Shown piece after piece: positions 58,477 to 64,000 of a stretch of DNA of 64,000 bases. The notes beneath the pieces were generated by a model. That model did no database searches. It saw only the letters and a program-made list of their open reading frames with translations, and had not been told where the DNA came from. This stretch comes from Candidatus Saccharimonadota bacterium (GTDB lineage Bacteria; Patescibacteriota; Saccharimonadia; Saccharimonadales; Saccharimonadaceae), in the NCBI GenBank assembly GCA_015999875.1, contig JAECRG010000001.1, positions 235,330 to 299,329 of the forward strand, in the 5' to 3' direction. How positions within the stretch are numbered: position 1 is the stretch's first letter; each line of letters opens with the position of its first letter. A program made the translations under genes and the position numbers.

Positions 58477-58552
58477 GCGGGTATAGCTCAGTTGTTAGAG
58501 CGCATCCTTGCCAAGGATGAGGCCAGGAGTTAGAGTCTCCTTACCCGCACCA
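58477..58552 (+). tRNA. tRNA-Gly (GCC) with altered elbow bases; site of integration
   Basis: The cloverleaf is complete: acceptor GCGGGTA/TACCCGC, D stem GCTC/GAGC, anticodon loop TTGCCAA (GCC) in CATCC/GGATG, T stem AGGAG/CTCCT and an encoded CCA. A promoter TTGAAA-N17-TATAAT (58433-58461) precedes it. The D loop reads AGTTGTTA instead of AGTTGGTA (T at position 19) and the T loop reads TTAGAGT instead of TTCRANN (A at position 56). The nearly universal G19-C56 pair is thus replaced by U19-A56. The 3' 23 bases also encode the C-terminus of the recombinase on the other strand. Confidence 0.92.
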
Positions 58553-60095
58553 TAATAGAATTTGAAGACCTGAGAAGGTCTTTTTTCTTGTCCCGACCCC
58601 TGAAAATTGGACTAATTTGATTGGTGTAAACTTTTCCGTCCTTGTCGATATAAATTTTGTCTGGAAACACCAAAAGTTTACACCTTTGCATATCATCCTC
58701 TGTTAATTCGAAGAATTTCGAGCCTTTGCTTTTCAGGAAGCCGAAGGCGAAATCTAGGAACTCACCAAGGTCGTTATCGTGCTGGTGGCGAAGGCTCTCT
58801 ATCTTCGTTTCATTCTTTGAGATGTCATCTTTGATGCGTTGAATAGACTGAAGAATTTCTTGCTTAATGACGGCATTGTCTGGGTCGGTCGCCGCATCAA
58901 CCTTACTAATAACACCCTCTTGCAGTTTTGTGTTTGCCGTCTCAAGCCGTCGAATGTCGTTTTGGGCATTTTGGTGCTTGGCGTTAAAGGCTTTAACGAG
59001 CTTTTGCCTTAGCTCGGCAAGACCTTCCTTTTCAAGTACCGTGTTATCAAGTAACACACTGAACTGTTCGTGCACATCATCCTTTTTCATATAGCGATAG
59101 CATCCACGACAGCGATATTTTTCATAATACTTAGTGACGCTTCTCTTCTTGCCGTTATTGAGAGGACAGCTCGTTATGCGAGGATGTTGCTTGTTTGCCC
59201 TCTCGCAATCATCACAAGTAATCTTATTCGATAGCGGATAAACTTGGTTCTTGTTTTTATGATGCCCAGTTTGGTTTTTGGGGTTGCGGTCGAATACTCG
59301 CAGTATTGCCTCGTGGTCTTCACGGCTAATAAGCGGTTCGTGTAAGCCGTTCTCGTTACGGACATTGAACTTGCCACCAAGGTCGATGATACCCGCATAA
59401 TATGGGTCACACGCCATACGCCGAAAGCTATCCATCTTGAGTTTGGAGTAATACTTGCCGAAGTCTGTCTCGTTGAGGTCTTTTAGGGCTTGTGTGGGCG
59501 TTGTAATGCGGTGTGCGAGACTTACGAGCGTTAAACGAAGTGGATTTGCTAGCAACGGGTTTATATTGTGTACGCCCGAACGGGTACTCTTTTGGTAGCC
59601 TGGCTTTGGGCGAGACGGCAAGCGTCCTTCTTGGATTGCTTTAATGCCTCCAGAAATGGATTTATTAATACGCTCTTCATTACTTCCCTCGGCTGAAAAG
59701 TATTTCGAGAATTTAAGAAGTTTCGCCCCGAGGTCTTGCTTATTTAGCTCGGGATTAGAAGCGTACCAAACGGTAACGCCACTTTGTCGGAAAAGCACCT
59801 CGAAATATGAAGCTTCGTCAATTGAACGCATAAACCTGTCGGGTTCATCAACAATAAGGAATTTTACTTGCCCTCGCTTTTTCTTGGCATAGGCAAGCAT
59901 TTCTTTAATGTCTTTACGGTTAATGTTATTGCCCCGCTTGCTCGAAACACTTCCAGACCACCAGCCATCTTCGGGGATAGTAACGCCCAATTCTTGAGCT
60001 GCTTTTAATACGGCATCTCGCTGTCTGTTTAAGCTATTGTTTTCAAGTTGTTCTGTCGATGATACTCGACAGCTAGCGATTGCGAGTGCGTTCAT
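58530..60095 (-). CDS. Large serine recombinase (integrase)
   Basis: The 521-residue enzyme cuts and rejoins DNA to integrate or excise the element. It has an N-terminal resolvase domain (about 1-150) with the catalytic serine in CRVSSTEQLENNSL and LIVDEPDRFMRS, a recombinase domain (about 165-290), a zinc ribbon (CDDCERAN, then YRCRGC) and a coiled coil (about 375-445). The last eight codons lie within tRNA-Gly, so integration decides the C-terminus. Its ATG overlaps the stop of a 36-residue gene in an ATGA. Confidence 0.93.
   Translation of the reverse strand: MNALAIASCRVSSTEQLENNSLNRQRDAVLKAAQELGVTIPEDGWWSGSVSSKRGNNINRKDIKEMLAYAKKKRGQVKFLIVDEPDRFMRSIDEASYFEVLFRQSGVTVWYASNPELNKQDLGAKLLKFSKYFSAEGSNEERINKSISGGIKAIQEGRLPSRPKPGYQKSTRSGVHNINPLLANPLRLTLVSLAHRITTPTQALKDLNETDFGKYYSKLKMDSFRRMACDPYYAGIIDLGGKFNVRNENGLHEPLISREDHEAILRVFDRNPKNQTGHHKNKNQVYPLSNKITCDDCERANKQHPRITSCPLNNGKKRSVTKYYEKYRCRGCYRYMKKDDVHEQFSVLLDNTVLEKEGLAELRQKLVKAFNAKHQNAQNDIRRLETANTKLQEGVISKVDAATDPDNAVIKQEILQSIQRIKDDISKNETKIESLRHQHDNDLGEFLDFAFGFLKSKGSKFFELTEDDMQRCKLLVFPDKIYIDKDGKVYTNQISPIFRGRDKKKDLLRSSNSIMVRVRRL
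58565..58588 (+). terminator. Terminator of tRNA-Gly
   Basis: AAGACC and GGTCTT pair around TGAGAA and are followed by a T run. It lies inside the recombinase coding region on the other strand, so it may come from the element. Confidence 0.7.
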
Positions 60096-61658: not shown

Positions 61659-61683
61659 AGGTGTCCTTGATGATATAATTAGG

Positions 61684-61830
61684 TTGTCTAGTTTATTTTA
61701 ATACGCAATATCATCACTCGGCTTCTGCCGCAATGATTTTTAGCTTTAGAAAGGGGCATCGCCCGAAACAGTAAGCTAAAACCTTATTGCGGAAAAAATA
61801 GGCTAGACACCGTTGGCGGTGTCCCTTTTT
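61684..61830 (+). ncRNA. Compact three-way-junction RNA with overlapping terminator (riboswitch-like or sRNA)
   Basis: An extended -10 TGATATAAT (61670-61678) predicts transcription from about 61684. The RNA folds into a 15-bp basal helix P1 (61685-61699 with 61795-61809), P2 (CGCAATA 61704-61710 with TATTGCG 61785-61791), and a three-way junction with two arms. Arm P3 is 61711-61736 with a CGGC/GCCG tip. Arm P4 pairs TTTTAGCTT with AAGCTAAAA (61738-61746/61773-61781) and carries an internal loop and a GGGC/GCCC tip. A terminator stem (61806-61812/61817-61823, then CCTTTTT) uses GACA of P1, so P1 and terminator exclude each other. No class I know fits. Confidence 0.65.
61806..61830 (+). terminator. 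Terminator of the structured RNA
   Basis: GACACCG and CGGTGTC pair around TTGG and are followed by CCTTTTTATTT. Its first four bases also pair in helix P1 of the RNA. Confidence 0.85.
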
Positions 61831-61877
61831 ATTTAGGCACTCTACGGTAGTAATTAACCAATAAGGAGTGTCTCGAA

Positions 61878-62105
61878 ATGAAAGACCGTAAAACGTACAA
61901 GATATTAACCGCTTGCAGCTTCATCCTTCCGATTAACCGTTGGTACTTAGGAAATGCAAAGGGCTGGCTACTCCGAAGCATCAGTGCTAACTATTTCTTC
62001 TTTGGGTGGATTGGCGACCTACTTTATATGGATAAGACTTTTGATGAAGCGATGGCAAAACGTGGCTTCACGAACACCAATATTCGTAACGAACAAGGGC
62101 GATAA
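61878..62105 (+). CDS. Small TM2-domain membrane protein
   Basis: The 75-residue protein has the TM2 pattern: a helix LTACSFILPINRWYLGNAKGW, then a second helix ending WIGDLLYMD. AAGGAG lies ten bases before the ATG. TM2 proteins are small membrane proteins of mostly unknown role. It is directly downstream of the RNA and its terminator, so readthrough of that terminator would express it. Confidence 0.75.
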   Translation: MKDRKTYKILTACSFILPINRWYLGNAKGWLLRSISANYFFFGWIGDLLYMDKTFDEAMAKRGFTNTNIRNEQGR

Positions 62106-62106
62106 T

Positions 62107-62161
62107 CCCAACAATTGTCTGCCAACAAAATGACCCCTGTTAGCGGGGTCTTATTGTTGGG
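62107..62161 (+). terminator. Nested hairpin terminator after the TM2 gene
   Basis: GACCCC (62132-62137) pairs with GGGGTC (62145-62150) followed by TTATTGTT. An outer CCCAACAAT/ATTGTTGGG pair encloses it. The remaining bases to 62259 contain an inverted repeat TACCTATC/GATAGGTA and no gene. Confidence 0.75.
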
Positions 62162-62259: not shown

Positions 62260-63171
62260 CTACTCTGTGCCTCGATAATATGTCATTAGATCTTCAAGAT
62301 CGGAACGAGATTTTGCGTATGCGAATTGCTCTGAGTGTTGGGCACGCACTAGATTATATTCATCAACTTCCGCATCGCCCACTGCCTTTCTTTTAAATTT
62401 CTTGCCGACAGTAGGGTCTGTGAGCTCAATCAGAACGTCAGGGGTTAATGCTAGAAACTGTGGTCTTTGCATAATGTGATTATTGAACATATCATCACTT
62501 GTTAATTCGATTACCGGCGTATCGGACGTAATAAACTGCTTCGAGCCTTTCGCTATGTAGAACCTCCAATTCTTACCCTTGAACCAAAGCATATACTCCT
62601 CGGTCTTCTGGATTGTATTTAGGTGATGCTGATTGCCAAATTCTAGCTTATAATCACCATCTAGGTACATATTTCGCATCTTATCTATTCTCTCCGTTGA
62701 AGCTTCGACACCCTTCTCATCAAAAGCTTGTTTGATATCATCTATGAAGTGCGGTTCAGCGGCTACGGTCTGCCCGAACCATTTCATAGCCTTTTCCATC
62801 ATTCCGTTCACACTACTTCTCATTTGTGGACTTCTGACCCACAGGCAAGCGAAAAACCAGGCAAGTTGATCAAGCTGTCTCGGATTTATTTGCTTGTAGT
62901 TTAAAATATCATCGATTATGCCATCAATGCCACTAGCAAAGTAGTCCTCGATTTCTTTAAAATAGGCTTCAAACTCCTGACTAATGTCATCAGCGACACC
63001 CGTTTCTTCGGCATAGTAAAAATCTTGCCAGCAGACACTCGTGTATGAGCGAGATTTCATCATCCTCCCTTGAGGTAAATCTAAAACCTGGATCATATTC
63101 TTGTCGTCAGAAAACCGCTTAAAGTAGAAACTTGGTGCGAAGTGCTGTCGTTTGGTTATTTGCTTACTCAA
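62260..63171 (-). CDS. DUF4238 protein
   Basis: The 303-residue protein opens with the DUF4238 hallmark KRQHFAPSFYFKRFS, followed by a segment with YTSVCWQDFYYAEE, and a conserved ITSDTPVIEL near the end. DUF4238 proteins are common in mobile and defence regions but have no proven activity. The start is TTG 63171, eight bases after CGAGG. Longer frames overlap the upstream gene and lack the motif. It begins 23 bases after that gene's stop. Confidence 0.8.
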   Translation of the reverse strand: MSKQITKRQHFAPSFYFKRFSDDKNMIQVLDLPQGRMMKSRSYTSVCWQDFYYAEETGVADDISQEFEAYFKEIEDYFASGIDGIIDDILNYKQINPRQLDQLAWFFACLWVRSPQMRSSVNGMMEKAMKWFGQTVAAEPHFIDDIKQAFDEKGVEASTERIDKMRNMYLDGDYKLEFGNQHHLNTIQKTEEYMLWFKGKNWRFYIAKGSKQFITSDTPVIELTSDDMFNNHIMQRPQFLALTPDVLIELTDPTVGKKFKRKAVGDAEVDEYNLVRAQHSEQFAYAKSRSDLEDLMTYYRGTE

Positions 63172-63194
63172 TGTTATGACCTCGTTATAAATTC

Positions 63195-64000
63195 TCAAGC
63201 TTGACGCACAAAGCTCACGGCAACTTGCAGCTGTTGTTCTAAGTCTTTTAGGAGAGCATTTCGTACCTCTGGAATGAGTGAAACGAGTGAGCAAACAAGG
63301 GCGTTCCTCTCCTGTGATGAGGTGGCTTGAGGTAGGGCGTCCTTAATCTTTATCAGGTCTGTATGTTTACCATTCTTTCCCAGAATGCTTTTCGCTAACG
63401 CCCTGTAGTAAGCGGGTTTGTTATGATCAAAGGCGATTGTTCGAGCAAAATCAATAAATACACTGTCTAGACAGCCCTGTTCTAGCAGCCACTCGCAGAC
63501 TAAAAAGTTTTGATAATCGTAGACTGAACTACCCGAAGCCAAGTAACTAGTTAGTCTATCGAAGAAAGTATCAGCATTAGTGACTTTCCCTAAATAACCC
63601 AGAATGAACGACGTTTCTTCTGGGTGATTATCTAAATTGTCTAAGCAGAAGTATGCAGCAAAGTCGTCACCTGCTGCACTTAATCTGTTCAAGAGGTAGT
63701 GGAATAGAGATTTGTCGAACGCATTGTCACTACCCTTAAGATAATACTCTGTAAATTCGTGTTTAATATGGGACAGTTGAATTGAGTTAGGTATTCCAGT
63801 ATTGACAGCTATTCGTGCTGCATACGGATCATCGCCGATGATAATATCGTCTAATTCATCCACGAGGCGATCTTGCAAAGCGGCAATAACCGCCGCTTGT
63901 CCTTCGATTTCCCTAATGGCATCTACGGTTTTTAGGATTTTAGATTTTGAAGACTGAAGATTTAAGCCACGCTTACGTAAGATACTCGACAGCGTCATTA
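63195..64000 (-). CDS. C-terminal part of a possible reverse-transcriptase-type defence protein (partial)
   Basis: The frame is open to the right edge, and the Met at 63998 is probably internal. The first visible residues, LSSILRKRGLNLQSSKSKIL, resemble the L..L...GLxLxxxKT.I segment that follows the palm of bacterial reverse transcriptases. The remaining 240 residues are helical repeats (for example HPEETSFILGYLGK, YYRALAKSILGKNG, SSQERNALVCSLVSL), as in Abi/UG-type antiviral RTs with helical C-terminal domains. The YxDD catalytic site would be outside the window, so this call is tentative. Alternatively it is a helical-repeat protein of another kind. Confidence 0.4.
   Translation of the reverse strand, partial: MTLSSILRKRGLNLQSSKSKILKTVDAIREIEGQAAVIAALQDRLVDELDDIIIGDDPYAARIAVNTGIPNSIQLSHIKHEFTEYYLKGSDNAFDKSLFHYLLNRLSAAGDDFAAYFCLDNLDNHPEETSFILGYLGKVTNADTFFDRLTSYLASGSSVYDYQNFLVCEWLLEQGCLDSVFIDFARTIAFDHNKPAYYRALAKSILGKNGKHTDLIKIKDALPQATSSQERNALVCSLVSLIPEVRNALLKDLEQQLQVAVSFVRQA

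Follow-up and report, generated by a model that had tools for sequence, protein, structure and literature searches.

A putative antitermination leader in Saccharibacteria whose hairpin loop resembles half of its own terminator

The fold and its place in the window

What kind of RNA precedes a short membrane-protein gene near the end of the window (the whole stretch of 64,000 nucleotides analysed here, from a genome of 1.04 Mb in 3 contigs), and how might it act on that gene? An initial annotation, made from the letters alone, described at 61684-61830 a three-way-junction RNA whose basal helix shares GACA with a terminator. Stems P1 and P2, the two arms and the terminator were indeed found at the positions that it gave, and the shared GACA was confirmed at 61806-61809; the overlap of P1 and terminator is conserved among the relatives described below. 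Folding of the RNA body (125 nt) yields -44.0 kcal/mol, as compared with -23.2 ± 3.3 kcal/mol for dinucleotide shuffles (z -6.3), none of the 200 shuffles being as good. The features of the locus are as follows.

61674-61679, + strand: TATAAT -10 box, with TG at 61671-61672 (extended -10), read from the sequence
61685-61699, + strand: 5′ strand of P1, pairs with 61795-61809 (15 pairs, two of them G-U)
61704-61710, + strand: 5′ strand of P2, pairs with 61785-61791
61713-61737, + strand: P3 hairpin (short arm), from the fold, outside the covariance model
61738-61746, + strand: 5′ strand of P4 (long arm), pairs with 61773-61781
61748-61763, + strand: mimic segment of the P4 loop, AGAAAGGGGCAUCGCC, putative antiterminator, pairs with 61815-61830
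61764-61772, + strand: 3′ part of the P4 loop, CGAAACAGU, which contains the few unpaired bases that are moderately conserved
61773-61781, + strand: 3′ strand of P4, from fold and covariation
61785-61791, + strand: 3′ strand of P2, from fold and covariation
61795-61809, + strand: 3′ strand of P1, whose last GACA (61806-61809) doubles as the start of the terminator
61806-61823, + strand: intrinsic terminator hairpin, GACACCGUUGGCGGUGUC, from a terminator scan and stem covariation, followed by CC and UUUUU
61815-61830, + strand: 3′ strand of the terminator with the U tract (61826-61830), GGCGGUGUCCCUUUUU, partner of 61748-61763 in the predicted antiterminated form
61863-61868, + strand: AAGGAG, probable ribosome-binding site, read from the sequence
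61878-62105, + strand: gene behind the leader, for a TM2-like membrane protein of 75 aa, named by resemblance and without a match in Pfam or NCBIfam

The -10 box lies at the usual distance from a predicted transcript start at about 61685-61686, that is, at the first base of P1. The impression that no known class fits the element was borne out by a search of Rfam release 15, which gave no match at the gathering threshold and, at a relaxed threshold, only a chance match to a microRNA; the loci of nine relatives gave nothing in Rfam except one tRNA. Among the open-access papers searched (without preprints and most subscription journals), none describes this RNA, any structured leader in Saccharibacteria or a regulatory RNA of this kind in Patescibacteria. 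On comparative grounds, the window RNA is best described as one copy of a class of structured RNAs, hitherto undescribed and widely distributed.

Distribution, covariation and position before genes

Relatives were collected by blastn over related genomes, followed by a search with the 75-aa protein encoded behind the RNA. The RNA was found directly before the TM2-like gene in Saccharibacteria and in genomes of related candidate phyla, and the window's own genome has a second such copy (L022). As one copy (L011) precedes an unrelated gene, covariance models were built, R1 from five close sequences and R2 from 21 hits; the seed was kept to close sequences and then widened because P1 and P4 were out of register in the first MAFFT alignments. 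At a cut-off of 0.001, R2 matches 143 of 393 genomes (58 of 153 genera) in the class to which the window belongs; a single genome can have up to seven copies, and the window's own has three. Matches were also obtained in 26 of the 362 genomes of a phylum-wide sample, eight of them outside that class, and in none of the 119 genomes of Bacillota that served as false-positive control at 0.001 (one weak match appears at E 0.002). The full leader can be lost, as a decayed copy (L024 4896-4959; L004 is a similar case) keeps the 3′ strands of P2 and P1 and the terminator alone before the TM2-like gene.

No match to the leader was found by blastn against phage records. Three matches to a DNA pattern in viral contigs were rejected as chance, two of them lying inside a deaminase-like gene and none having leader structure around it, and a second DNA pattern gave 0 matches on viral contigs. 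No leader precedes the TM2-like gene of Isobaculum (L035) or those of the viral contigs L037 and L038; the protein of Isobaculum melis (L035 2111-2344) is 58% identical, and gene transfer is possible.

Covariation and conservation in relatives, which had been put forward as tests of the element, proved to be strong and wide, respectively. Across 95 distinct copies, 94.9% of the cells of P1, P2, P4 and the terminator are paired and compensatory changes on both sides are found for 34 of 34 modelled pairs. By helix, P1 is 96.6% paired (13 of 13 modelled pairs covary), P2 95.1% (8 of 8) and P4 92.8% (9 of 9), and P3 varies among copies in both length and sequence. Covariation scores 0.795 with the true partners, 0.196 with shuffled ones and at most 0.099 with slid ones; as these 95 copies were aligned by fitting them to the same structure, the argument rests on the slid control and on the size of the effect.

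A structure that is kept with little sequence, adjoins varied accessory genes and, in the window, sits within an apparent serine-recombinase element could also be a folded DNA site (a recombination hairpin, attC-like or otherwise) by which accessory genes are carried in cassette form. However, G-U and U-G cells are frequent in the 95-copy alignment (237) whereas A-C and C-A cells, the mismatches expected if the opposite strand were the folded one, are rare (34), which argues for RNA made from this strand. The fixed spacing to the promoter and the complementarity to a U tract are likewise features of RNA, and the copies stand before genes, each with a promoter of its own, rather than in arrays after them, so that we regard a DNA site as very improbable. 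The wobbles are also lopsided over all helices of alignment A8, with 192 cells of 5′ U and 3′ G against 45 of 5′ G and 3′ U (70 against 5 in P1).

The position of the leader is also constant. A TATAAT-like box (at least five of six bases) is found upstream in 119 of 121 copies and, with few exceptions, its end is 4-6 nt away from the motif, so transcription probably starts at P1. On the other side, 111 of 121 copies have an open reading frame on the same strand (at least 75 codons) that begins within about 60 nt, as compared with 13 of 119 in the divergent control direction. From these counts and the fixed -10 box, the leader is predicted to lie in the same transcript as the gene, directly before it. 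The same numbers disfavour the earlier suggestion of a small RNA with its own terminator, taken here as one that acts in trans from its own promoter, with the next gene separately promoted. A stable RNA between a strong -10 box and a terminator, present in up to seven copies per genome, would suit such a role, but a small RNA would need neither this constant position nor a loop that matches the 3′ strand and U tract of its own terminator (see below), and we consider it improbable.

A loop that competes for the terminator

The two internal-loop strands AGAAAG and GAAACAGT had been read as a binding pocket. This reading was not supported, as AGAAAGGGGCAUCGCC (61748-61763) can form 16 contiguous pairs, three of them wobbles, with the terminator 3′ strand and U tract, GGCGGUGUCCCUUUUU (61815-61830), and hardly any unpaired bases are conserved outside this pseudoknot. 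The GGGC/GCCC tip of the first reading competes with the pseudoknot and is no general feature of the class. RNAalifold arrived at the pseudoknot unprompted: run on 14 sequences in a plain MAFFT alignment, it favoured a helix of 15 pairs that joins the P4 loop to the terminator 3′ strand with its U tract.

The pseudoknot was assessed in 100 copies, most of them unused for model building, and its helix is in neither covariance model. In these copies it is 8-17 contiguous pairs long (median 13), and the cognate duplexes of loop and terminator have a mean energy of -22.7 kcal/mol, against -13.5 kcal/mol for non-cognate ones, with none of 20,000 permutations as good. The signal persists in 44 divergent representatives with less than 62% identity (z -18). 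For instance, both sides are changed in L033 (AAAACGACACCGC with GCGGUGUCGUUUU), L028 (AAUAGGGCACCACG with CGUGGUGUCCUAUU) and L042 (AAAGGGCAAUCACUC with GAGUGGUUGUCCUUU). A hairpin loop that appears to imitate half of its own terminator is thus, by comparative analysis, the distinguishing feature of the class. The imitation is not exact: in 81 of 95 copies the P4 loop has G where the terminator 5′ strand has A, which would give a wobble in the pseudoknot at a position where the terminator has a Watson-Crick pair.

P1 would compete for the other half of the terminator. Its 5′ strand has the same GUC as the terminator 3′ strand, and the GAC shared by the end of P1 can be paired in the terminator as well, with three of three pairs in 74 of 95 copies and two in another 20 (at least two in 94 of 95). 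The 5′ half of the terminator would thus be contested by P1 and its 3′ half by the P4 loop. The predicted read-through form, with P1 and the pseudoknot, and the predicted stop form, with the terminator, are therefore mutually exclusive, and both are conserved by covariation. The end of P1 plus the pseudoknot outweighs the terminator by 11-26 kcal/mol in 95 of 95 copies, a difference that does not include the geometry of the pseudoknot or the cost of closing its loop, and it is thus plausible, within the limits of such energies, that read-through would be the thermodynamic default. The covariation of the pseudoknot would also arise if it served the finished RNA instead of transcription.

Other contacts of the P4 loop were observed among about eight pairings tried, and we make no claim for them. 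They involve its 3′ part, which shows a weaker signal with P3 (z -5.7 in the divergent representatives) and with the P2 3′ strand (z -3.3), the latter as a second alternative hairpin of CAGUAGG with CUUAUUG. The apical loop of P3 is U-rich and the 3′ part of the P4 loop A-rich (columns 79-83 and 141-157 of A8), and a loop-loop contact is possible.

Comparative sequence analysis thus shows the fold with its pseudoknot, the competition between pseudoknot and terminator, the constant placement of promoter and gene and the wide distribution. The whole is probably a cassette of promoter and leader through which transcription antitermination controls the downstream gene. In the proposed mechanism, the transcript would begin at P1, and P1, P2 and P4 would fold while the RNA emerges. 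P1 would keep hold of the GACA that opens the 5′ half of the terminator, and the P4 loop, a near-copy of this half preceded by A's, would capture the 3′ half and the U tract as these leave the polymerase. The pseudoknot would then block the terminator hairpin and the gene would be read. If P1 or the P4 loop were unavailable, whether because of a bound factor, a competing pairing or folding kinetics, the terminator would form, releasing about 145 nt of leader RNA. The leader is, judging from its sequence features, a portable cis-acting antitermination leader of the kind represented by attenuators or by the expression platforms of riboswitches. The layout of an antitermination element or ON riboswitch, which the initial annotation had recognised, stands as far as the antitermination-type leader is concerned; membership among the riboswitches, which would call for a known ligand, is not claimed, and the pseudoknot between loop and terminator had been missed.

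Possible triggers, target genes and related systems

We infer that some signal shifts the balance between read-through and termination. It might be a metabolite, in which case the three-way junction and the P4 loop would be the aptamer of an ON or OFF riboswitch and the ligand would set the balance between pseudoknot and terminator. The position, the size and the arrangement of terminator and antiterminator are those of transcriptional riboswitches, and the P4 loop has some bases that are 73-86% conserved, namely A145 (0.83) and A154 (0.86) and, to a lesser extent, A141 and U157 (columns of A8). The weak covariation of the 3′ part of this loop with P3 or the P2 3′ strand could also mean a compact fold. 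By contrast, if the pseudoknot, the end of P1 and the terminator with its tail are set aside, no unpaired column is as much as 90% conserved, A154 and A145 in the 3′ part of the P4 loop being the highest. A classical metabolite aptamer is not supported, as this low conservation would argue against one, and the downstream genes, which include those for DNA methylases, TM2-like, DUF4352, DUF4190 and other proteins, are unrelated, unlike those of a metabolite regulon. A metabolite riboswitch is, consequently, an unlikely reading.

Given how few unpaired bases are conserved, a metabolite seems a less likely trigger than a protein or RNA factor or folding kinetics. An attenuator controlled by a protein or an RNA, in which a shared factor on the P4 loop or P1 would set read-through for an accessory regulon, is a version of the antitermination explanation that names the kind of trigger. 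In its favour, the many copies per genome have in common their structure and a loop of the GG(G/C)CA type while standing before unrelated genes, and there is little conservation of anything resembling a metabolite pocket. Much of the common loop sequence is, however, accounted for by the pairing with the terminator, and no candidate factor can be named, so we put this version forward only tentatively.

The genes behind the leader offer no obvious common pathway that would point to the signal. The supposed TM2 gene of the window is TM2-like by resemblance only, since the Pfam TM2 model (PF05154), which as a control matches in 8 of 14 control genomes, gives no match to it, and a special link to TM2 is not supported, as most copies precede other genes. 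These genes are unrelated to one another, with TM2-like proteins, restriction-modification methylases and anchored or secreted proteins among their products, and 59 of 107 distinct downstream proteins have a hydrophobic segment in their first 70 residues. The Pfam counts refer to 110 proteins from the best-scoring copies and may misrepresent the class as a whole: DUF4352 (8), DUF5067 (7), N6_N4_Mtase (6), tRNA_anti-like (5), Fib_succ_major (4), EcoRI_methylase (3), C-5 DNA methylase (3), DUF4190 (3), Eco57I (2) and Tsp45I restriction enzyme (1). Several of the methylases were assigned concordantly by PADLOC and NCBIfam. One portable RNA cassette might control an accessory regulon across Patescibacteria (restriction-modification, surface and membrane proteins) and respond, by way of a protein, an RNA or a ligand, to a common signal that could be host contact or nutrient state, an idea in which our confidence falls somewhat short of even.

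Some features of the leader are known from other systems. Processive antitermination by put-type and EAR RNAs modifies the polymerase and needs no complementarity to any one terminator. The leader resembles them in that RNA would bring about antitermination where a transcript begins, but in it the conserved feature is complementarity to the adjacent terminator. With T-box leaders it shares the competition of antiterminator and terminator in a structured leader; it is set apart from them by covariance-model scanning, as no T-box family is listed in the Rfam scans of the leader, and the most frequent downstream families include no genes for aminoacyl-tRNA synthetases or related to amino acids. 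Transcriptional riboswitches with pseudoknotted aptamers include the ZTP, fluoride and preQ1 classes. There, as here, an upstream pseudoknotted domain in a 5′ leader decides whether an intrinsic terminator forms, whereas in the leader of Patescibacteria the pseudoknot itself would consume the terminator 3′ strand and U tract, the targets are unrelated genes, and there is neither a conserved ligand pocket nor an Rfam match. The LicT and PyrR types are protein-controlled attenuators, and in them, as in ANTAR/EutV, one RNA fold before several genes decides on termination. The leader differs from all three in that its predicted antiterminator is a long-range pseudoknot between loop and terminator. 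ANTAR/EutV is described in PMC3369931, and preQ1 riboswitches are the topic of the review PMC11625349.

Gene regulation in these ultrasmall epibionts is largely uncharted, and a leader class of this kind gives a handle on genes that would be regulated jointly. More than a third of the genomes sampled from one bacterial class have this RNA, ahead of genes for methylases, for anchored proteins and for further accessory functions. The complementarity of loop and terminator makes the mechanism testable with few paired mutations, and genetic tools could draw on the leader as a native part.

As for the surroundings in the window, a gene for a large serine recombinase (58530-60095, - strand) overlaps with its 3′ end a tRNA gene (58477-58549, + strand), which points to an integrative element with its end at the tRNA; in two relatives, L003 and L055, a serine recombinase is near the leader as well. 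After the TM2-like gene there is a second terminator-like hairpin (62132-62150), read on both strands. Further on, a DUF4238 protein (62260-63294, - strand) is encoded next to the C-terminal part of a protein that runs off the end of the window (63195-63998, - strand) and matches the PADLOC model RT_UG21, a defence-associated reverse transcriptase, with an E value of 2e-47.
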